From the NCBI GenBank assembly GCA_030609785.1, contig JAUWTC010000013.1:1-14638 (forward strand): a stretch of 14,638 nt of DNA, given 5' to 3'. The notes beneath the pieces are model-generated. The model searched no databases. It saw only the letters and a list, made by a program, of their open reading frames with translations, and had not been told where the DNA came from. The stretch comes from Holophagae bacterium. GTDB taxonomy: Bacteria; Acidobacteriota; Thermoanaerobaculia; Thermoanaerobaculales; Sulfomarinibacteraceae. How positions within the stretch are numbered: the stretch's first letter is position 1; each line of letters opens with the position of its first letter. The position numbers were made by a program, and so were the translations under genes. This document shows positions 3 through 12,210 of this stretch, piece after piece.

Positions 3-1016
3 CACGATTCCAAGATTTTCCCCGAGTCTTTGAGCCGGATTCGAAACCGACTGGCGGGATTGTCAATGGATATCGAAGAATTGACTGTCGTTTACGACAA
101 GGGAAACCTGTCCAAGGCCAACCAAGAGATGGTCGATAAGGCGCCTTTTCACTACGTGACCTCATTGACGCCGATATACCATGCCGACTTGACACAAATC
201 CCAATAGACGACTATTCCCCGCTGCCAAAGGGGAGTCGCCTCGAGGGTGTCCGGGCATTGCGATTAACCCACAATATCTGGGGTGGTGAGCGCACGGTGA
301 TCCTCTTCATCAGCGAACAACTCCGCGATGGGCAAATCCGTGGTCTACAGCAACACCTGGACAAACGTCTCAAGACTCTCGCTGAGTGGAAAAAACAATT
401 GGGAAAACCTGACGGACGCCCATGTAATGAAGCGATAGCGTCCAAGCGGATCGACAAGCTCCTCAGCGGTCAGCACCTCCGAGATATCCTCCACATCGAG
501 TATCACCCAAAAAGAAAAGGGTCTGCCAAGCTGGAGTATTGGGTCGACGAAGACGCACGATTGCACCTGCATACCGAGGTCTTTGGCAAGCGAATCGTGG
601 TCACCAACCGTCACGAGTGGTCAACCGAAGATATCCTTTTGGCCTACCGTGGACAAAGCCACGTCGAGGCGGTTTTTCGTCAATGCAAAGACGACGAGCA
701 TCTCGCCATACGCCCTCAATTTCATTGGACAGACCAGAAGATACACGTACATGCTTTCATCTGTCTTCTCGCTTTGTTGCTGGCTCGTACGGTCGAGTAC
801 AAAGTCCGTCACCTGGACGGTCCAAAATCCCTTTCCGGTCTCCTCGATGCTCTTGCAAACATACGCCTTGCCATGGTGCTACAGCCGTCCGGAAAACAGG
901 GCGGTCGCCCCAGGGTCGAATGGCAACTCGAAGATGCCGACAAAGATCTCGCTAAACTCTTCCAGGCCATTGTCCCCAATCAGGCCCCGTTTGTGTATAC
1001 CCGCAAAATGACCTGA
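3..1016 (+). CDS. IS1634-type (IS4 superfamily) transposase, 5'-truncated by the window edge
   Basis: The reading frame is open to the left edge, so the TTG at 30 is probably internal and the gene starts outside the window. The visible part is about 338 residues. It carries the second catalytic Asp region (VVYDKGN, near nucleotides 90-110) and the Glu-bearing C1 signature YRGQSHVEAVFRQCK around 645-690. That signature fits the Y-(2)-R-(3)-E-(6)-K spacing of the IS4 superfamily except that Q sits at the Arg position. After it comes the hydrophobic IHVHAFICLLALLLAR helix typical of IS1634-type enzymes. Family knowledge says such proteins catalyse DDE cut-and-paste transposition. The first catalytic Asp should lie to the left of the window, so I cannot say whether the element is intact. 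The gene ends 204 bp before ftsE and reads in the same direction. Confidence 0.9.
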   Translation, partial: HDSKIFPESLSRIRNRLAGLSMDIEELTVVYDKGNLSKANQEMVDKAPFHYVTSLTPIYHADLTQIPIDDYSPLPKGSRLEGVRALRLTHNIWGGERTVILFISEQLRDGQIRGLQQHLDKRLKTLAEWKKQLGKPDGRPCNEAIASKRIDKLLSGQHLRDILHIEYHPKRKGSAKLEYWVDEDARLHLHTEVFGKRIVVTNRHEWSTEDILLAYRGQSHVEAVFRQCKDDEHLAIRPQFHWTDQKIHVHAFICLLALLLARTVEYKVRHLDGPKSLSGLLDALANIRLAMVLQPSGKQGGRPRVEWQLEDADKDLAKLFQAIVPNQAPFVYTRKMT

Positions 1017-2867: not shown

Positions 2868-4091
2868 TCACTGCTCGCGGAGCATTTTGAGGTGTTCGCG
2901 AAGGTCATTCGCCTCTTCAACCTCGCCGATGGCTTCGAGTTCTTTGATCTGCTGTTCGAGGGCGATGAGTTTGCGTTCGTACGCAGCCTTTGCTAAGTCA
3001 GCCTCTACGTTCTTGGCGGCATCGGCTTTCTTTTTCTCGACGTCGCTGACCTTCCTTGAATTCCCGGCATTCTTGTACGCCGTGATGGCATCGTCATATT
3101 TCTTGGTCTTGTCGTAGACGAAACCCATTTGGTTGTGGACCTGGGTCCGCATTTTCCCGCTGACGCCGATCTTCAGGGCCTGCTGCAAATCGGTAATGGC
3201 GGATTTGTACTGGCCCAGATTGGTGTTGCATTGTGAATGGTAGTAGTGCACCAGGGCATTCTGGGGTTGCTTGGATCGAGCCCGGTCAAACCACCCCAAT
3301 GCCTTCTGGTAGTCCTTGGCGCCCAGGCGGGTCTCTCCAGCAAGCAGAAGGTTGTCAAATGTGGGCGAGGCGCTCGCCAGTTTTTCGGCAATGACGGCGC
3401 CTTGAGAGTAGTAGCTGTCCTTCTGCGAGCCGCCGGCACGGCGACCGGCGGAGATCGCTGACTTGACAGCGGAGGTTCCACTCTTGGTGCTGGACGGGTC
3501 CAGTTCAAACGCTTTTTTGAACGCAGCGAAGGCCTTGCCGTAGTCCTCTTCTTTGCTGTAGGCATAACCGAGGGTGTAGAACATTTCTGAGTTCTTCGGG
3601 GTCGCTTTGGTTTGGGCTTCCAAAACGTTGACGGCCTCTCCGGGGAACCCGGCCATAATCGCAGCATTGGCGAAAGCCGGCGCATAACTCTGGCGGGCCC
3701 GAGTATCCAGATCGGAGTAACGGACCTTCTTGAGAGTCAGGTACGCGTCATTGTACTGTTTGGCCTGGATCAGAGTCTGTCCGAGTGCGATGGCATACGA
3801 AGCATTGCCAGGGTCCAACTCGGTGGCCTTTCGAAGACTGGCCAGAGCTTTTGACGTCTTTTTGTCCCCCCGCAGGGAGAGCCCCAACAAATAGTGGCTT
3901 CCGGCGTGGTCGGGACTTTGCTCAACGACCTTTTGAAACCACTGAACGGCGTTCGAATACTCTCGGGCCCTGAAGGCCTCAAGGCCTTTGTTGTAGTCCT
4001 GATTGTCCTCGGCTCCAGCCGGAAGGGCCACCGCGAGGAGCAGGATCCCGACGCACAATCTGGCGCCGAGGCGGAATCCTGAGTGAATCAT
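2868..4091 (-). CDS. Secreted TPR-repeat protein with C-terminal coiled coil
   Basis: This is a 407-residue protein with a Sec signal peptide: a basic start, the hydrophobic stretch CVGILLLAVALPAGA, and a likely cut after Ala27 (no lipobox Cys). Tetratricopeptide repeats follow at roughly 31-63, 65-97, 168-200, 246-278, 280-312 and 314-345, with an irregular stretch between 98 and 165. Residues 350-407 are charged and heptad-like, predicting a coiled coil. The expected place is the periplasm, where TPR proteins act as assembly scaffolds. It is the last gene of the exbB-exbD-exbD-tonB-PATAN operon, 17 bp after the PATAN stop, with AGGAGG five bases before ATG. The context suggests a partner or adaptor of the Exb/TonB machine. 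The exact function is unknown. Confidence 0.85.
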   Translation of the reverse strand: MIHSGFRLGARLCVGILLLAVALPAGAEDNQDYNKGLEAFRAREYSNAVQWFQKVVEQSPDHAGSHYLLGLSLRGDKKTSKALASLRKATELDPGNASYAIALGQTLIQAKQYNDAYLTLKKVRYSDLDTRARQSYAPAFANAAIMAGFPGEAVNVLEAQTKATPKNSEMFYTLGYAYSKEEDYGKAFAAFKKAFELDPSSTKSGTSAVKSAISAGRRAGGSQKDSYYSQGAVIAEKLASASPTFDNLLLAGETRLGAKDYQKALGWFDRARSKQPQNALVHYYHSQCNTNLGQYKSAITDLQQALKIGVSGKMRTQVHNQMGFVYDKTKKYDDAITAYKNAGNSRKVSDVEKKKADAAKNVEADLAKAAYERKLIALEQQIKELEAIGEVEEANDLREHLKMLREQ

Positions 4092-4108: not shown

Positions 4109-4945
4109 TCAGGATGAACCTTCGTCAATTCCGCCGAGCAGGGGGCGAACCTGCTCGTCAAACATCGCTGCGACTTCGGCACCCTTGAGGAGAGAAATGG
4201 CCTTGGAATTTTGTGCGACCATTTCTCGGATGATGCCAAGGTCTCCACCCCGTTCGATCGAGGTGCACGCGCCGGCATATTGTTTTTCAATCGTCTTTTC
4301 GCCGCCGGAACCGACGACGTCGACGGCCACGGTGCGGATTTTTTCGGCCAGACCCAGAAGGGTGATCGGACTGGGGCCGGCTTGAAAACCGCCGTTGTCC
4401 TGACCCTCTTCCGGTTCTCTGAGGGCGACAAGTCCTGATGTGATCATTCCGAAGAGGAGCTTCGATACGTCGAACGCAGACCAGCGGAGGATGGTCGCTA
4501 CTTGCTCGATCGAACGCCGCCCATCGACATGGGTGACCAGGATCCACTCTTGAGGACTGAGTGTGACCTGATCCTGCCCTTCCCTTGGGGAAAAGAACGG
4601 CACCAGGTCCAGCGAGGGAATACGGCGCGACAGAACCCGCCACTCGTCCAGGCGTCGGGCAGCTTCCATCATCAGATTGGCGTTGGAACGCTGCACGGTT
4701 ACGTCGGTTGAGGTTTCCCCCGGTGTGAAGGAAAAATCTCCGGTTGACCAGATGGCCATCTCATAAACGGCCTGTTCTCCGCGGAGATTTCCGATATTGG
4801 CATCGATAATCTGGCCGTCTTTGAGGAAGATCTTCCCCTGGTCGTCTCCATTGATCAGATGGAAGGCTCCGGTCTTTCCGGACACGCTGACCAACTGGAT
4901 CACGTCCGGAAGGGAGAGTTCTGAGAGTGAGCCTTGCAGAGCCAT
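4109..4945 (-). CDS. PATAN-domain (DUF4388) protein
   Basis: This is a 278-residue soluble protein with no signal peptide or TM segment. Residues 1-100 match the PATAN/DUF4388 pattern: ALQGSLSELSLPDVIQLVS, then SGKTGAFHL, a G-x-I-F-x-x-G-x-I-x-x-A hairpin, GEQAVYEMAIWSTGDFSF. Residues about 125-175 (SPQEWILVTHVDGRRSIEQV to SGLVAL) look like the winged-helix-like domain that often follows PATAN. The tail is helical and unassigned. In studied examples PATAN domains act as protein-protein modules in signalling and motility regulators, often with receivers. Here the gene sits 25 bp after tonB and 17 bp before the TPR gene, so a cytoplasmic regulator or adaptor of the Exb/TonB complex is a reasonable inference. 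The Shine-Dalgarno sequence is weak, which suggests coupled translation. Confidence 0.87.
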   Translation of the reverse strand: MALQGSLSELSLPDVIQLVSVSGKTGAFHLINGDDQGKIFLKDGQIIDANIGNLRGEQAVYEMAIWSTGDFSFTPGETSTDVTVQRSNANLMMEAARRLDEWRVLSRRIPSLDLVPFFSPREGQDQVTLSPQEWILVTHVDGRRSIEQVATILRWSAFDVSKLLFGMITSGLVALREPEEGQDNGGFQAGPSPITLLGLAEKIRTVAVDVVGSGGEKTIEKQYAGACTSIERGGDLGIIREMVAQNSKAISLLKGAEVAAMFDEQVRPLLGGIDEGSS

Positions 4946-4970: not shown

Positions 4971-5696
4971 TTACTGCAGGTTGAACCGAACAGTCAGGAT
5001 GTAGAGAACCTCGACCGGTTTCCCGTTGAGTGTCGAAGGTTTGAAGGTCCACTTTCTGACGGCTGATTCTGCGGATTCCGTCAGACCCAGCGGCAGACCC
5101 CTGAGTACGATGACCCTGGTCACTTTCCCTACCTTGCCAATGGTGCACTCCAACACGACCACCCCCTGGATGCGGGCTCGACGCGCCGCTTCGGGATAGA
5201 TGGGGTTGGGTCCGCTGAGTCGTACCGGCTCCGTGATGTTGCCGCCGACAACGAACCTGATCGGTCCTTCGGGTTCGGGCGCCGGAGGCGCGTCGGGAAC
5301 CCCGAGGATCAGACTGTCGTCCGCGATGAAATCCAGATCCTCCTCGGGATCTTCCTCACGAATCGGCTCCGGCTCGTCCGGCGTCGGATCGGGGATCGGG
5401 ACCTTCTTGGTCTTAGGCTTGGGAATCTGCTGCAGCTCCTGCTTCGGGGGTTGCTTGAACTTGACCTGTTTGACCACGTAGATCTTGGTTTTCTTCTGGT
5501 CGTGGTCACCGGCGTCGTCGCCCCAGACCAGGAAGTTCCAATTCATAATAAAGAACACCGCATGCAGGACCATCGCACAGATAAACGCGATTCGAGCAAA
5601 TTTCGCATCCTGCGCTTCCTCCATCGCGATGATTTCCATCACCGTCTGGGGGAGCTGGGGCCCCTTTTGGGCTGCGGGCTTGGGAGTCTCATTCAT
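4971..5696 (-). CDS. tonB: TonB-family energy transducer
   Basis: This is a 241-residue protein with TonB layout. It has a cytoplasmic N-terminus, one TM helix at about 34-58 (FARIAFICAMVLHAVFFIM) and an acidic Pro-rich periplasmic linker (82-145). The TonB C-terminal domain covers about 150-241, containing YPEAARRARIQGVVVLE and the SAVRKWTFKPSTLNGKPVEV strand pair. His45 inside the TM helix is placed like the ExbB/ExbD-coupling histidine of classical TonB, so this copy is probably energised by the proton gradient. The partner outer-membrane receptor is not in the window. The start ATG 5696 lies 13 bp after the second exbD stop. The protein is longer at the N-terminus than classical TonB (33 residues before the TM), as is common outside Proteobacteria. 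Confidence 0.93.
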   Translation of the reverse strand: MNETPKPAAQKGPQLPQTVMEIIAMEEAQDAKFARIAFICAMVLHAVFFIMNWNFLVWGDDAGDHDQKKTKIYVVKQVKFKQPPKQELQQIPKPKTKKVPIPDPTPDEPEPIREEDPEEDLDFIADDSLILGVPDAPPAPEPEGPIRFVVGGNITEPVRLSGPNPIYPEAARRARIQGVVVLECTIGKVGKVTRVIVLRGLPLGLTESAESAVRKWTFKPSTLNGKPVEVLYILTVRFNLQ

Positions 5697-5709: not shown

Positions 5710-6186
5710 TTACTGAGCTACGCCCAGCATGGTCCAGATATTACTGATTTCACGCTGGGTTGGAATGGAAATGGTTTCGATCTTGATCCCGCCGTCTTCG
5801 ACCGGGGTTCTCAAGATGTCGAAGACATAGATCATGTTGCCGTAAGTCGCCTCGGGGTCGGTTCGCAGAATCACTGGTTTCTTCGGATTCTCGCGGAGTG
5901 TCTCCGCGATATAAGGCAGCAGTTTATCGGCGATCTGTTCTTTGGCCATTGGATTTCCGTCGAGCTGAAGGTCTCCCCCGGGCTGCACGAAGACATCGAT
6001 CGAGTCCTCTTGTTTGATCTCGGGTGTCTCGGTGTTGTCTTCGGGAAGAGCGAAATCCAACCCGCGAGTCGCGGAGAACACCGAGGTGACCATGAAGTAA
6101 ATGATCAAGAGGAACGAGATGTCGGCCATGGAGCCGGTGAAGATCTCTGACTCGATCTCCCGCTTGCTATTTTTGAATACTCCCAT
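5710..6186 (-). CDS. exbD: ExbD/TolR-family biopolymer transport protein (second copy)
   Basis: This 158-residue ExbD/TolR protein has a short cytoplasmic N-terminus, one TM helix at about 20-40 (SMADISFLLIIYFMVTSVF) and a periplasmic domain. Asp22 in the MAD motif corresponds to the essential proton-carrying Asp of ExbD and TolR. The periplasmic part has the family core, ending with strand-helix segments such as KPVILRTDPEATYGNMIYVFDIL. It is 11 bp downstream of the first exbD and 13 bp upstream of tonB. The periplasmic domain differs clearly from the first copy (for example FVQPGGDLQLDGNPM is absent there), so the two are paralogues that may form a mixed rod inside one ExbB pentamer. Confidence 0.92.
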   Translation of the reverse strand: MGVFKNSKREIESEIFTGSMADISFLLIIYFMVTSVFSATRGLDFALPEDNTETPEIKQEDSIDVFVQPGGDLQLDGNPMAKEQIADKLLPYIAETLRENPKKPVILRTDPEATYGNMIYVFDILRTPVEDGGIKIETISIPTQREISNIWTMLGVAQ

Positions 6187-6197
6187 GATCGCCCCCG

Positions 6198-6638
6198 TCA
6201 GCCGTCGACGGTTCTCTGGTCTGAGAGCAGGTAAATGGTCTTGACCTTCGACTGCTTCAGAGCATCGAGAACCGCGTCGACTTTTTCGTAGTGCACATCC
6301 TCGTCCGCCTTGATGATGAATTCCTTGGTGGGGTCCTGAGCAACCACGGTGGAGGCAAAGGTGATGACCTCCTCATTGGTGCTGACGGGCAAGGACATTT
6401 CTTCACCGGTGGAGACCCTGACTATCTCGCCCGTGTCCGGGGAGGAAATCGAGATCACCGCGGCCTTTTTGGGGATATTTTTGCGCACCCAGGTTTCCGG
6501 AAGGTCGACCTGGGTCCGGTCTACCTCGGTGTTGTAGGTCAACACGAAGAAGACGATCAGCAGAAAGACGATGTCTGCCATCGACGCCGTGAAAATCTCA
6601 CCGCCGCTCTTCTTCACTCTACCGCGGATGACTGCCAT
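6198..6638 (-). CDS. exbD: ExbD/TolR-family biopolymer transport protein (first copy)
   Basis: This 146-residue ExbD/TolR protein has the TM helix at about 20-38 (SMADIVFLLIVFFVLTYNT), which carries the proton-path Asp22. A periplasmic domain of about 105 residues ends in EFIIKADEDVHYEKVDAVLDALKQSKVKTIYLLSDQ, the typical ExbD C-terminal core. It works in the inner membrane as part of the proton-driven ExbB-ExbD motor. ATG 6638 follows AGGGAGG and lies 27 bp from the exbB stop. The basic, Gly-rich N-terminus (VIRGRVKKSGGEIFTASMAD) is parallel to that of the next gene, which shows the duplication. Confidence 0.92.
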   Translation of the reverse strand: MAVIRGRVKKSGGEIFTASMADIVFLLIVFFVLTYNTEVDRTQVDLPETWVRKNIPKKAAVISISSPDTGEIVRVSTGEEMSLPVSTNEEVITFASTVVAQDPTKEFIIKADEDVHYEKVDAVLDALKQSKVKTIYLLSDQRTVDG

Positions 6639-6665: not shown

Positions 6666-7334
6666 TCACGCCTTGGGCGCGTCGGTGCCCTGGGTCGAGC
6701 TGTACCGCTGACTGTCCATCTCGATGAAGGTTTCCATCAACATGTTGGTGGCGGTCTCGATGTCACGCACGAAGCGGGTGATCTTGGTGTTGTACCAGTT
6801 GTAGGCCAGCTGGGCCGGAATGGCGACGATCAGGCCGGTTGCGGTCGTGATCAACGCTTCCGAGATGCCGGATGCGACCGCGCCGGGGTTGGTCAAACCT
6901 TCGGCCGCGAGGGTGGCGAAGGACTTGATCATGCCGGTAACGGTCCCGAGGAAGCCCAACATCGGGGCGACGTTGGCTGTGGTGGCCAAAACGCCCATGC
7001 GGCGCTCGAGCCGGTCCAGTTCGTACATCGCTGCATTTTCGATGGTCTTCTCGATGTCTTCACGGGTGTGGCCGAAGCGCAGGAGGCCGGCCTTCATCAC
7101 CGAGGCCACCGGACCGCGGCTTTGCTCGCAGACCTTGATCGCTTCTTTGACGTTCCGGTTAACCAGAAGAGCCTTGCGGATCTTGGTCAGGAACTCGTTG
7201 ACGTTGATTTTCGCCTTCGAAAAGACGATGTATCTCTCGATGATGAACGTCAGTGCCAGGAGCGAGAAAAAGAGAAGGGGCCACATCATGGGTCCACCCT
7301 GGCGGAAATAGGTTGCGAGCGTTCCGAAGTGCAC
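6666..7334 (-). CDS. exbB: MotA/TolQ/ExbB proton channel family protein
   Basis: This is a 222-residue protein with three TM helices: about 17-37 (MWPLLFFSLLALTFIIERYIVF), 120-142 (ANVAPMLGFLGTVTGMIKSF) and 156-178 (GISEALITTATGLIVAIPAQLAYNW). The cytoplasmic loop between TM1 and TM2 contains the family stretch IEKTIENAAMYELDRLERRMGVLATTA. The APMLGFLGTVTGMI and ISEALITTATGLIVAIPA motifs define the family, with the conserved TM2/TM3 Thr residues lining the proton path. It forms the pentameric stator of the Exb/Tol motor. The start is GTG 7334, chosen because AGGAGG precedes it on the minus strand by seven bases. It is the first gene of a six-gene operon. ExbB fits better than TolQ because a TonB-type gene follows and no TolA, TolB or Pal is seen. 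Confidence 0.93.
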   Translation of the reverse strand: MHFGTLATYFRQGGPMMWPLLFFSLLALTFIIERYIVFSKAKINVNEFLTKIRKALLVNRNVKEAIKVCEQSRGPVASVMKAGLLRFGHTREDIEKTIENAAMYELDRLERRMGVLATTANVAPMLGFLGTVTGMIKSFATLAAEGLTNPGAVASGISEALITTATGLIVAIPAQLAYNWYNTKITRFVRDIETATNMLMETFIEMDSQRYSSTQGTDAPKA

Positions 7335-7753: not shown

Positions 7754-8260
7754 TCACTGCCCCTGCCGGGGACGGTGATGAATATGGGTCAAAGCGATGG
7801 CCATGGCGTCAGCCGCATCGTGGGGCGGCGTCTTGTGCAGGCCGAGAAGGCGGCTGACCATGAAGGCGATCTGTGGCTTCTCCGCCCTGCCGTGACCGAC
7901 GATCGACTTCTTGACCTCGGCCGGCGTGTAGTCGGTGACGCCAATCCTCGCGGACCCCAGAACCGACAGTATGACTCCTCGCGCCTCTGCCAGGACGACC
8001 GTCGATCGTGGATTGCGGCCGGTAAACGCCGTTTCGACCGCCGCCTGATCCGGACCGTGTTCCTCGATGACCTTGGCCAGCCGCTCCGCGAGGTCAGACA
8101 GTCGGGTCGAACGGTCGTCGCCCTTCGGTCTGATAACGCCGAAGTCAAGCAGGTGATACCGATTGCCCTCGGCCGTCACCACCGCCCAACCCGTGGCGGC
8201 TGACCCTGGATCGATGCCGACGACACGGAACCGACTGGGTGCGGTTATCGAAGGCGTCAG
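7754..8260 (-). CDS. ruvC: Crossover junction endodeoxyribonuclease RuvC (probable CTG start)
   Basis: RuvC is a dimeric nuclease that resolves Holliday junctions. The four metal-binding acidic residues are present, numbered from the proposed start: Asp17 in VVGIDPGS, Glu76 in AAVETAF, and Asp148 and Asp151 in HDAADAMAIA. The DYTPAEVKKSIVGHGRAEK segment and the 168-residue length also fit the family. No in-frame ATG, GTG or TTG occurs near the beginning of the domain. The best start is CTG at 8260-8258, which overlaps the yebC stop as CTGA and has GGAG (8269-8266) five bases upstream. ATA at 8248 is a weaker choice. An in-frame extension to 8554 would run inside yebC and reads as a shadow. 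The yebC-ruvC order is common, but ruvA and ruvB do not follow. Confidence 0.9.
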   Translation of the reverse strand: MTPSITAPSRFRVVGIDPGSAATGWAVVTAEGNRYHLLDFGVIRPKGDDRSTRLSDLAERLAKVIEEHGPDQAAVETAFTGRNPRSTVVLAEARGVILSVLGSARIGVTDYTPAEVKKSIVGHGRAEKPQIAFMVSRLLGLHKTPPHDAADAMAIALTHIHHRPRQGQ

Positions 8261-9006
8261 AGCAACTCCAGGACGGCCTCGTCGATGTCGAAGTTGGCCC
8301 AGACGTCTTGTACATCGTCCTGGTCGTCGAAGGCTTCCATCAAGCGGATCATCTGCTGGGCCTTCTTGCCTTCGAGTTCGACGGTTGTCGAAGGCTCCAT
8401 GTCGAACTGTGCTGCTTCTATATTGACGCCGGCAGCCTCCATCGTCTCTTTGACCTGGTGGAGTTCGTCTGGTGCGGTGAAGATACGAAAGTACTCGCCA
8501 TCCTCGGTGTCGAGGTCGTCGGCGCCGGCTTCCAAAGCCTGCTCCATCAACCAATCCTCGTCGAGGTCATCGGCGCGGGCCACCAGGATCAGACCCTTGC
8601 GGGTGAAAAGCCAACCGACACTTCCGTTTTCCCCGAGGTTTCCGCTGTGTTTGGAGAAGAGGTGGCGGATCTCGGGAACGGTTCGATTACGATTGTCCGT
8701 CAGGCACTCGAGCATTACGGCGACCCCGCCTGGGCCATAGCCCTCGAACCGAACCTCCTCATAATTGACGCCTGGAAGTTCACCGGTGCCTCGTTGGATC
8801 GCTCGGTTCATATTGTCGGCGGGCATATTTGCAGCCTTGGCGGCAGCAACAGCGGCTCGCAGTCGCGGATTGCTGTCGATATCCCCGCCGCCCGCACGAG
8901 CGGCAACTGTGATCTCCCGGATGATCTTGGTGAAGATCTTGCCGCGCTTGGCATCGGCCCGACCCTTTTTGTGCTTGATGGTGCTCCATTTGCTGTGGCC
9001 TGACAT
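8257..9006 (-). CDS. yebC: YebC/PmpR-family protein (TACO1 homologue)
   Basis: This 249-residue protein begins MSGHSKWSTIKHKKGRADAKRGKIFTK, the invariant YebC N-terminus. It continues with AANMPADNMNRAIQRGTGE, the YEEVRFEGYGPGGVA core, and TDNRNRTVPEIRHLFSKHSGNLGE. Family members act in the cytoplasm, either as transcriptional regulators (PmpR-like) or as ribosome-associated factors easing translation of proline stretches. That second role is notable because a nearby gene encodes a long Pro-Thr repeat. ATG 9006 is chosen because it gives the conserved MSGHSKW start and follows GGAGG; an upstream in-frame start at 9123 adds unrelated residues. Its stop overlaps the ruvC start. Confidence 0.95.
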   Translation of the reverse strand: MSGHSKWSTIKHKKGRADAKRGKIFTKIIREITVAARAGGGDIDSNPRLRAAVAAAKAANMPADNMNRAIQRGTGELPGVNYEEVRFEGYGPGGVAVMLECLTDNRNRTVPEIRHLFSKHSGNLGENGSVGWLFTRKGLILVARADDLDEDWLMEQALEAGADDLDTEDGEYFRIFTAPDELHQVKETMEAAGVNIEAAQFDMEPSTTVELEGKKAQQMIRLMEAFDDQDDVQDVWANFDIDEAVLELL

Positions 9007-9256: not shown

Positions 9257-9297
9257 ACGTGGACTCTTCACCCAGTCCAACACCTGAGGATGGTGAT

Positions 9298-11958
9298 ATG
9301 AGCGCGAATATTCTTCTTGTCGAGTACGAACCGCGATACGTGGAGCGGGTGCAAAAGGCACTCGGTGGCCCTGGTTACGCCCTGGAGGTGGCTGGCAACA
9401 TCGACGCTGCCGTTGAGGTCTGTGCGGCGTTCGAACCCCACGCAGTCATCATGACCTCCGTGCTGCCGCGGATCAAAATCGAAGATGCCATTACCCAGTT
9501 GAGGGCCCGCGCGGGTTTGCGGACGACGCCGATTTTGATTCTGATGTCCGGCTACAAAGGCGAGGACCCCAAAGCGGATGCCGCTCGATATGCGGCTCAG
9601 GACATCCTGGAACGACCGTTCACGGGAGATGTGCTGCTCCAGCGCCTTGAGGCGATGTTGAGCGAGGCAACGGACCCTGCTGCCACCCAGGCGATCCCGC
9701 AAGACATGCTCGAGGCGCTTCGGCGGAACGCCGGCAAGGAAGACAAAAGTTTTACCTCGGACGAGTTGTTCGGCGACATCCTCTCCGATGTCGAGAGTGT
9801 CGATGCTCCGAAAAAGGCTGGCCCAAAAGACGTTCCTGTCCACAAAGCCGGGGCCGTCAAGGTCGATGATGTCCTGGCAGGGTTGGTGGATAGCGAACAC
9901 AAGCCCCGTCCTGTCAAACGAGCCGTGACGCCTTCCGAAACCGACGTTGACGCCATCCTTTCGAAAACGTTGGCCGGCATGGACGTTCAGCCCGTTCGTC
10001 AGGCCAAGAAGAGCGAGCCGGCCCCGCCGGTCTCGACGCCGCCTGAGCCCAAACCCCCGGTGGCGCCGCCGTCATCTCCTGAAGTCAAGGCCACAAAGAC
10101 CTCGAAGGCGGCGAAGGCGGACGAGAATCAATTCGGTCAGTACATCCTCAAGGACCACATCGCTACCGGCGGAATGGCCGAGGTATTCAAGGCGCGGATG
10201 ATGGGTATGGAGGGCTTCCAGAAGACGGTCGCCATCAAGCGGATTCTGCCGCACCTGACGGACAACGACGAATTCGTCACGATGTTCATCGACGAGGCCA
10301 AGCTGGCCGCCCAGTTGAACCACAACAACATCATCCACATCTATGATCTCGGCAAGATCGATCGGTCGTACTACATTGCGATGGAGTACATCGAGGGGCT
10401 CGATTTGCGGTCCCTGCTGAAGAACTGTCGAGATCGTGACGCCCATCCTCCGATCCCAATCTCACTCCACATCGCGACAATGCTGGCTTCGGCACTGGAC
10501 TACGCCCACCGAAAGCAGGATTTTGAAGACCGGGACCTCGGGCTCGTTCACCGGGACGTGTCGCCGCAAAATGTGCTGATCTCGAATGACGGTGACATCA
10601 AACTCTGCGATTTCGGAATCGCCAAGGCGGCTTCAAAAGCGTCCCATACCCGTGCCGGCGCTCTCAAGGGCAAGCTGCAATACATGTCGCCGGAACAAGC
10701 CTGGGGCAAGAGCATCGACCACCGGTCGGACATCTTCTCCCTTGGACTGGTGCTGTACGAGATGCTGACCGGCTCGAAGCTCTTTGCCGGCGATTCTGAA
10801 TTGTCCATTCTCGAGCAGGTTCGAAATCCCACGGTGGCTGCGCCTTCCGGCATCAATCCGGACATTCCGGAAGATGTCGAGACGGTTGTTCTCAAGGCTC
10901 TCGAATCCGACCTTGGCGATCGCTATCAGTCCGCCCGTGATTTCCAAAGCGACCTCGAGGAGGTCATGCGGAAATATGGATGGACGGTCGATTCGGCGGC
11001 GTTGGCTCGGTTTATGAGGGAACTGGTCAAGGGCAAGAAATTCACGCAGATTCCCGGGCGAAAGGTGACAGCGAAGGAGCCCGCCAAGGCGATGCCGCCT
11101 GTCGAGCCGCCTGCGCCGGCGCCTCCAACTGGACCGACGTCTCTTGACACCCTCCCCGATGACGGTGGCGAGCCTGTTGTCGTCGAGGAGGCAGCTGCCG
11201 TTGCCGTGGCTTCGGACGGCGAGTCATCCAATATGAAATGGCTCTTGATCGGCGCCGCTGCGTTGGTGATCGTCGTCGGTGGCCTCTGGATGGTGATCAG
11301 TGGCGGAGGGCCGGAGGGCCCACCCCAGCAGGGTGATACCCCGGTAGCTGCCGTGGTCGAAACCCCGACCGCTCCGGCCGGTCTGATGACCGAGGAGGAG
11401 ATGGCAGCGGCCGCCGCACAGGCCGCGGCGGAGATGGTCGAGGAGAAGAGCGAGGAGATGCGGGAGCGCCTCGAAGAAGAGTTCCCGACGCCAACGCCGA
11501 TTCCCCCGACACCGACCCCCGAGCCCACACCGACGCCAGAGCCGACGCCAGAGCCGACTCCCACCGCGGTGCCGGTAGCGCCCGCGGCAACGGCGACGCC
11601 GATTCCCCCGACCCCGACGCCGATTCCCCCGACCCCGACGCCAACGGTCCGGGAGGGAGATATTGTCGAGCCGGGCGGCCCCGGAGTTATCCTGCCTTCA
11701 ATCATCGATAAACCGACGCCGTCCTTTCCGCCGATGGCTCGGAGGATGAGGGCGGAAGGAACCGTGACCCTGGAGATCCTGGTTGGAACCAACGGGACCG
11801 TTGAGCAGGTCAAGATGCTCAACAACAGTCGTCCGGGCGTCGGTTTCGAAAAGGCTGCCGAAGATGCGGTTCGGAATTGGAAGTACAAACCCGCAACCAA
11901 GAATGGCGTGAAAGTCCGAATGTGGATTCCGGTTCGGATTCCGTTCAGTGTTCGTTGA
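9298..11958 (+). CDS. Trans-envelope Ser/Thr kinase: pseudo-receiver, kinase, TM, Pro-Thr stalk, TonB C-terminal domain
   Basis: This is an 886-residue multidomain protein. Residues 1-121 are receiver-like, but the phospho-acceptor Asp is replaced by Thr53 (PHAVIMTSVLP) and the Lys-Pro pair is Arg106-Pro107, so phosphotransfer is unlikely. Residues 122-278 form a low-complexity linker. Residues about 279-561 are a Hanks-type kinase: Gly loop ATGGMAEVF, Lys314 in VAIKR, His418-Arg419-Asp420 in HRDVSPQN, Asp438-Phe439-Gly440, and MSPEQ. All catalytic residues are present. A single TM helix lies at 648-667, then an Ala-Glu-rich helix, a Pro-Thr repeat at about 730-783 and a TonB C-terminal domain at about 800-886 (FPPMARRMRAEGTVTLEILV, NWKYKP). 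The kinase should be cytoplasmic and the TonB domain periplasmic. ATG 9298 follows GAGGA by seven bases. Function is inferred, and the substrate is unknown. Confidence 0.93.
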   Translation: MSANILLVEYEPRYVERVQKALGGPGYALEVAGNIDAAVEVCAAFEPHAVIMTSVLPRIKIEDAITQLRARAGLRTTPILILMSGYKGEDPKADAARYAAQDILERPFTGDVLLQRLEAMLSEATDPAATQAIPQDMLEALRRNAGKEDKSFTSDELFGDILSDVESVDAPKKAGPKDVPVHKAGAVKVDDVLAGLVDSEHKPRPVKRAVTPSETDVDAILSKTLAGMDVQPVRQAKKSEPAPPVSTPPEPKPPVAPPSSPEVKATKTSKAAKADENQFGQYILKDHIATGGMAEVFKARMMGMEGFQKTVAIKRILPHLTDNDEFVTMFIDEAKLAAQLNHNNIIHIYDLGKIDRSYYIAMEYIEGLDLRSLLKNCRDRDAHPPIPISLHIATMLASALDYAHRKQDFEDRDLGLVHRDVSPQNVLISNDGDIKLCDFGIAKAASKASHTRAGALKGKLQYMSPEQAWGKSIDHRSDIFSLGLVLYEMLTGSKLFAGDSELSILEQVRNPTVAAPSGINPDIPEDVETVVLKALESDLGDRYQSARDFQSDLEEVMRKYGWTVDSAALARFMRELVKGKKFTQIPGRKVTAKEPAKAMPPVEPPAPAPPTGPTSLDTLPDDGGEPVVVEEAAAVAVASDGESSNMKWLLIGAAALVIVVGGLWMVISGGGPEGPPQQGDTPVAAVVETPTAPAGLMTEEEMAAAAAQAAAEMVEEKSEEMRERLEEEFPTPTPIPPTPTPEPTPTPEPTPEPTPTAVPVAPAATATPIPPTPTPIPPTPTPTVREGDIVEPGGPGVILPSIIDKPTPSFPPMARRMRAEGTVTLEILVGTNGTVEQVKMLNNSRPGVGFEKAAEDAVRNWKYKPATKNGVKVRMWIPVRIPFSVR
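11596..11642 (+). repeat. 21-bp tandem repeat in the Pro-Thr stalk
   Basis: Two identical 21-bp units (11596-11616 and 11617-11637) plus a partial third encode TPIPPTP repeats. They lie within a longer degenerate Pro-Thr-Glu coding stretch (about 11485-11645). Slippage here would change stalk length in frame. Confidence 0.7.
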
Positions 11959-11985: not shown

Positions 11986-12210
11986 ATGACCCTTTCAGAC
12001 GGCCAGAAAAAACTCTACGAAGATGTGTTGCAACAAGAGAAGAAGCAGATCGAAGATCTCGAAGGCCAGATTCAGGAAGAACTGGCAGCAGTGAAGGCGA
12101 GGATCTCGGATCTCCAGGGTGCTCAAAAAGCGGCGCATCAGATGTACGATGCTGCCTGTCAAAGGCTGGGAATCCCCAACGAATTCGAGGAAGACGGCTC
12201 CAAGGATTGA
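11986..12210 (+). CDS. Small coiled-coil protein of unknown function
   Basis: I do not recognise this 74-residue protein. It is highly charged and helical, with heptad-like spacing from about 5 to 55 (YEDVLQQEKKQIEDLEGQIQ), then a short GIPNEFEEDGSKD acidic tail. It has no signal peptide, TM segment or Cys. It is probably real: a strong AGGAGGAGG precedes ATG 11986, it lies 27 bp after the kinase gene in the same direction, and a terminator follows its stop. Co-transcription with the kinase suggests a partner or substrate. A general small coiled-coil protein is the alternative. Confidence 0.75.
   Translation: MTLSDGQKKLYEDVLQQEKKQIEDLEGQIQEELAAVKARISDLQGAQKAAHQMYDAACQRLGIPNEFEEDGSKD

Follow-up and report, generated by a model that had tools for sequence, protein, structure and literature searches.

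A Ser/Thr kinase joined across the membrane to a TonB C-terminal domain in Acidobacteriota: a candidate envelope sensor

One chain of 886 residues, encoded in the window (the whole 14,638-nucleotide stretch of DNA analyzed here), combines in the computed layout a cytoplasmic degenerate receiver and an intact kinase with an apolar transmembrane (TM) helix, a periplasmic helix, a Pro-Thr stalk and a TonB-fold tip. The established role of TonB domains is to transmit force to receptors of the outer membrane. The reading that we favor, with moderate confidence, is a Ser/Thr transmembrane sensor kinase built like the PASTA kinases, whose TonB tip would grip a partner in the envelope and which would not be driven by ExbBD. 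Searches of an open-access library yielded no description of a kinase-TonB_C protein, and to that extent the combination appears to be unpublished.

Domain architecture and distribution of the family

The kinase gene starts with an ATG at 9298, and its stop codon ends at 11958. The frame is also open up to a GTG at 9259, yet a Met stands at the 9298 position in 134 of 141 full-length relatives. The features of the protein, all on the plus strand, are as follows.

9298..11958, plus strand: receiver-kinase-TM-stalk-TonB_C protein, 886 residues (open frame; Pfam; 141 full-length relatives aligned)
9298..9666, plus strand: degenerate receiver domain, residues 1-123 (Pfam Response_reg; model pLDDT; Thr53 at the phospho-Asp position)
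9745..9795, plus strand: signature motif TS(D/E)(D/E)(L/I)FGD(I/L)L in the receiver-kinase linker, residues 150-166 (alignment of 141)
10132..10962, plus strand: Hanks-type Ser/Thr kinase domain, residues 279-555 (Pfam; invariant residues; PknB-like C-lobe fold)
11239..11298, plus strand: single apolar TM helix without His, residues 648-667 (model helix; hydrophobicity; family comparison)
11392..11481, plus strand: periplasmic helix, residues 699-728 (predicted in two models; conserved)
11485..11646, plus strand: Pro-Thr-rich stalk, about residues 730-783 (sequence; conserved PTPTPxPPT pattern)
11716..11949, plus strand: TonB C-terminal domain, residues 807-884

The original prediction of kinase, TM helix, Pro-Thr stalk and TonB C-terminal domain in one 886-residue chain is borne out by the frame, by Pfam and by the AlphaFold model. 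Its list of domains and neighbors was also right about the Exb operon, and it had missed the N-terminal receiver and a constant DUF4388 neighbor. Two separate genes joined in error can be ruled out, given a frame without internal stop and the same fusion in relatives. The assembly error that had been considered as an alternative is likewise ruled out: many independent contigs carry the kinase-TonB_C architecture (the longest of those listed, that of P0033, measures 3.3 Mb), and the join is not an artefact.

A search with residues 770-886, with candidates confined to 0.55-1.75 times the query length so that ordinary short TonBs could not appear, matched 173 proteins. All 120 of the matches listed carry both kinase and TonB_C, and 100 of these 120 carry Response_reg as well. 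The architecture search proposed along with the original prediction thus yields a recurrent family. Among 39 related genomes, the source genome included, the best match reaches E <= 1e-115 in all but one (38 genomes), the exception (G035) being 74% complete. The named kinase loci belong to Acidobacteriota metagenome-assembled genomes (MAGs), the closest labeled Thermoanaerobaculales or Holophagae; the source genome is itself a 2.8 Mb MAG, 79.8% complete, in 457 contigs. A receiver-plus-motif profile matched all 297 genomes searched because ordinary receivers match too, so it yields no prevalence figure for the phylum and served only to find 20 more regions.

The tip is TonB-like by profile, by sequence and by fold. 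The Pfam TonB_C profile scores 70.5 bits (cut-off 24.6), which answers the concern that the terminal domain might fail to match such profiles, and TIGR01352 scores 60.4 bits (cut-off 27.1). Solved TonB chains (by sequence) and fold comparison agree, with receptor-bound TonB 6i97_D as top fold match, and a false TonB_C match is ruled out. Over 141 relatives the domain has a mean column conservation of 0.68; judged from the alignment, the tip is retained and under selection in most lineages.

Most lineages are not all of them. Five (L056, L063, L065, L074 and L084) lack the TonB tip entirely and end in a TM helix plus 66-192 residues without TonB_C, indicating that the tip is not essential to the core task of the family. 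In Geothrix the chain keeps the TM helix only; the two Holophagae receiver-kinase-TM proteins examined stop three residues past its hydrophobic window. On the kinase tree, TonB_C shows 11 gains or losses, at least 9 of them forced, a count inflated by 3'-truncated rows that were counted as a group of their own; the label "none" (without TonB_C) gives 7 changes, at least 5 of them forced.

These relatives bear on the idea that the tip is mainly a structural tether, holding the kinase at outer-membrane or peptidoglycan sites for localization and not for sensing. The long Pro-Thr stalk and helix would suit a tether, and tip-less relatives that keep the TM helix, with a helical tail or, in Geothrix, alone, indicate that kinase function does not need the tip. 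The retention of the tip under apparent selection speaks against this idea, as does the fact that membrane kinases with an outer domain are usually sensors, which is established for PASTA kinases. We consider this reading improbable.

Like the PASTA kinases PknB, StkP and Stk1, the protein has a cytoplasmic Hanks kinase, a single TM helix and an extracytoplasmic domain in the place of the sensor. It differs from them in carrying TonB_C on a Pro-Thr stalk outside and an added receiver-like domain at the N-terminus; PASTA repeats were not found in it with Pfam up to E 0.1. The Holophagae receiver-kinase-TM proteins (e.g., Geothrix) share the receiver-like domain, the FGD motif, the kinase group and the TM helix. 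They differ in lacking TonB_C and in mostly keeping the receiver Asp.

The missing TM histidine and the linked Exb/TonB block

E. coli TonB needs His20 in its TM helix. In the kinase, the TM helix at 648-667 has a hydrophobic core without His, as originally claimed, and also without any charged residue (AlphaFold model helix and sequence). The best 19-residue window is free of H, D, E, K, R, N and Q in 155 of 157 relatives, the two exceptions being P0059, with one core His, and P0115, whose best window falls in the kinase. If the window is required to lie after the kinase motif, a core His occurs in 1 of 148 relatives, and in 5 of 148 if three flanking residues are counted; the other 9 of the 157 were left out, as the strict motif was not found in them. 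A second hydrophobic window appears in 43 of the 157, and all 38 that were checked lie inside the kinase, about 36 residues before the HRD motif, so a second TM helix was rejected.

A same-method control rules out chance. Within a 25-residue TM window, His is present in 0 of 53 TonB_C kinases from the fetched loci, as compared with 28 of the 39 TonB_C proteins that have such a window but are not kinases; most of the 11 control proteins without His look like signal peptides or receptors. The TonBs encoded at the kinase loci have the TM His in 21 of 21 cases, the window's own TonB included. Hence, at the level of sequence, the missing TM His is a family-wide trait and not an impression from a single protein. 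The N-terminal TM anchor with a coupling His that marks a TonB transducer is also absent, as the TM helix of the kinase stands behind 640 cytoplasmic residues.

The minus strand of the window carries the following genes upstream of the kinase.

8257..9006, minus strand: yebC, divergent from the kinase (NCBIfam)
7754..8227, minus strand: ruvC (NCBIfam)
6666..7334, minus strand: ExbB/TolQ-like proton channel (Pfam MotA_ExbB, 119.9 bits)
6198..6638, minus strand: ExbD/TolR-like protein (Pfam)
5710..6186, minus strand: second ExbD/TolR-like protein (Pfam)
4971..5696, minus strand: true TonB, TM helix with His (Pfam TonB_C, 73.1 bits)
4109..4945, minus strand: DUF4388 protein, the most constant neighbor of the kinase family (Pfam, 89.6 bits)
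2868..4091, minus strand: TPR protein, traveling with the Exb/TonB block (Pfam)

The predicted Exb/TonB operon is real; ruvC and yebC separate it from the kinase, whose start is about 2 kb away. Many loci keep the minus-strand order ftsE-ftsX / TPR-DUF4388-TonB-ExbD-ExbD-ExbB-ruvC-yebC as well as the plus-strand order kinase-small ORF-accD-folC. The small ORF (11986-12210, plus strand) encodes 74 residues with heptad-like repeats behind a strong ribosome-binding site. Of seven loci looked at, it has clear counterparts in L026, L029, L034, L039 and L048; in L028 and L035 the longest-frame pick gave another frame. At the left end of the window, a transposase (DDE_Tnp_1, 3-1016, plus strand; 24.4 bits against a cut-off of 23) runs off the contig, which therefore probably breaks inside an IS element.

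Linkage was counted in 46 loci, from which duplicates and Holophagae-type loci had been removed and which had at least 5.5 kb upstream and a receiver score of at least 60. Linked genes are DUF4388 in 32, yebC and accD in 27 each, and ExbB in 20, so that conservation near exb loci, a check suggested with the original prediction, amounts to 20 of 46. In 41 of the loci the 3' end of the kinase gene is complete: TonB_C and linked ExbB occur together in 14, TonB_C without linked ExbB in 22, and ExbB without TonB_C in 5 (the tip-less lineages named above); no locus lacks both. All 23 genomes checked encode an ExbB somewhere; the absence of a linked ExbB is not the absence of ExbB, and a motor encoded elsewhere could still act on the kinase. 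None of the three, TonB_C, DUF4388 and ExbB, occurs nearby in ten Holophagae-type loci.

From these data one can ask if the linked ExbB-ExbD-ExbD motor energizes the protein in the way of TonB, TolA or GltG, with the kinase reporting or controlling the work of the motor. The linkage in 20 of 46 loci would fit such a joint function, as would the presence of ExbB in every genome checked. Precedent comes from Myxococcus gliding. The cytoplasmic part of GltJ is a GYF/zinc-ribbon. Neither FHA nor GYF/zinc-ribbon was found in the cytoplasmic part of our protein, where Pfam shows receiver and kinase only; the kinase and the receiver-like domain replace FHA or GYF here, and the TM helix lacks His. GltG (FHA, TM, TonB_C) binds the ExbB homolog AglR in a two-hybrid assay, and the AglRQS motor, with one ExbB and two ExbDs, has the make-up of the operon in the window (PMC3169522). 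GltG and GltJ share with the kinase a cytoplasmic signaling domain, a TM helix and a periplasmic TonB_C, and they too sit with a motor of one ExbB and two ExbDs (PMC3169522, PMC9389320). The AgmX/PglI C-terminal model NF033768 scores 26.0 bits, below its cut-off of 40. Myxococcota provided no certain GltG yardstick, the two scanned proteins with TonB_C and a TM helix far from the start (L181 and L183) having no named cytoplasmic Pfam domain.

Against a motor-driven kinase stand the TM His count (0 of 53 kinases, 21 of 21 linked TonBs) and the loci in which TonB_C occurs without linked ExbB (22 of 41) or ExbB without TonB_C (5 of 41). The missing His and this uncoupling make energizing by ExbBD in the manner of TonB unlikely as judged from sequence, and the earlier suggestion that the protein may not be energized by ExbBD is strengthened. 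We regard the motor-driven reading as unlikely, if the least so of the alternatives.

The tip and the true TonB next door can also be compared directly. Like E. coli-type TonB, the tip is a TonB C-terminal domain by profile, sequence and fold; the differences are the 600-residue cytoplasmic part and the apolar TM helix without His. In the 14 loci that carry both domains, the kinase tips are on average 42.5% identical to one another and the linked TonBs 67.1%. The tip has the lower value in 91 of 91 pairs, and it diverges independently of the TonB of its own genome. A tree of 90 TonB domains, drawn from a short alignment of few columns and leaving many forks unresolved, sets the kinase tips apart from the linked TonBs almost as a single group (2 changes), with three Myxococcota TonB_C proteins placed among the tips. 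A recent copy of the adjoining TonB is not supported, as the tips group apart, albeit in this poorly resolved tree. The source genome encodes three further TonB_C proteins, on contigs C252, C422 and C294; those of C252 and C294 have a TM His, and that of C422 starts with a signal-peptide-like stretch.

This comparison weighs on the proposal of a decoy or regulatory role toward TonB, in which the tip would compete for TonB-dependent receptors or the kinase would phosphorylate the linked Exb/TonB proteins and so tune nutrient uptake. Receptors are at hand, with 12 TonB-dependent receptor matches in the source genome (11 over cut-off), the Exb/TonB genes are linked at kinase loci, and the fold of the tip is closest to a TonB in its receptor-bound form. 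Shared receptors would constrain both domains, whereas the tip is the less conserved in every pair and groups apart, and TonB_C and the linked Exb block are separable both ways. Competition with the canonical TonB for receptors, which the original prediction had offered as an option, has become less likely on account of this much faster divergence and uncoupling, and we regard a role as decoy or regulator as unlikely.

Cytoplasmic domains and the DUF4388 neighbor

The kinase domain matches Pkinase with 136.1 bits (cut-off 31.7). Every one of the 141 full-length relatives has K314, E333, D420, N425, D438 and T451, which include the catalytic Lys, Glu, Asp and Asn and the DFG Asp of Hanks kinases. 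From these residues the kinase looks active. Its best-scoring family is the PASTA kinase model NF033483, with 298 bits, below the cut-off of 450. The C-lobe has a PknB-like fold, with PknB as best PDB match, and the N-lobe is poorly modeled in the AlphaFold structure. Fold searches with the whole model matched kinases only.

The N-terminal domain matches Response_reg with 34.0 bits (cut-off 30.2) and is modeled as a receiver fold of alternating strands and helices, at a pLDDT of about 90-96. The phospho-Asp, switch Thr/Ser and Lys of a receiver are replaced by T53, M83 and R106: among 141 full-length relatives the first position holds Thr in 137, Asn in 3 and Ala in 1, the second Met in 137 and the third Arg in 136. 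By its residues, the domain does not look like an aspartate switch. In a wider set, in which the alignment is less sure for the more distant relatives, the phospho-Asp position of 29 TonB_C-bearing relatives shows T 10, S 10, N 4, D 1, R 1 and 3 gaps, and that of 19 relatives without TonB_C shows D 13, the remainder being S, T, N, E or gap.

The FGD signature motif is conserved throughout the alignment of 141 and is found in Holophagae-type kinases as well. It is thus common to kinases with and without the TonB tip, with a second copy in L063 and L056, and is perhaps a docking motif.

DUF4388, which we take to be the PatA-like/PATAN domain, is linked without ExbB in 13 of its 32 loci. Two Aminicenantes-type loci (L071, L159) have it linked with unrelated genes between. 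Fusions occur elsewhere: a Ser/Thr kinase-DUF4388 protein in a genome of the same family (L212, 235-2202, plus strand) and, in the source genome, a receiver-DUF4388-DegV protein on contig C226 (L223, 970-2940, plus strand), DegV being a fatty-acid-binding domain. These fusions lend more weight to a tie of DUF4388 to both kinds of domain.

Proposed mechanism and implications

For the favored sensor kinase we envisage the following course. The tip would bind a partner in the periplasm or the outer membrane by adding on to a beta-strand or a TonB-box-like peptide of that partner. Engagement of the tip, its loss, or tension might then be passed along the stalk, the periplasmic helix and the TM helix and affect how two kinase domains pair; these would autophosphorylate on the activation loop and subsequently phosphorylate cytoplasmic targets. 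The receiver-like domain may serve for docking or regulation and not as a switch worked by aspartate phosphorylation. Among possible cytoplasmic partners, the DUF4388 protein is the strongest candidate. ExbBD would not drive the protein as it drives TonB.

A more daring version, which we consider improbable, is a self-contained gauge of envelope tension or contact. Here the tip would hook an outer-membrane protein and pull on the stalk would regulate the kinase, whose Ser/Thr activity would switch the receiver-like domain (Asp replaced by Thr/Ser) and send the signal to DUF4388. The histidine kinase would thus be replaced by the protein's own Ser/Thr kinase in switching the receiver-like domain. 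If true, this would combine TonB mechanics with the logic of a one-component receiver and with Hanks kinase signaling, a hybrid that has not been described before.

In this family a Ser/Thr kinase carries the TonB domain at its outer end, an arrangement conserved across a large group of bacteria whose signaling is little studied. The protein is a concrete example, open to testing, of a TonB fold that would serve sensing instead of energy transfer, and the relatives with and without the tip are a natural comparison set. The findings suggest that this kinase provides the Acidobacteriota with an unstudied route for informing the cell interior about the condition of the outer envelope.
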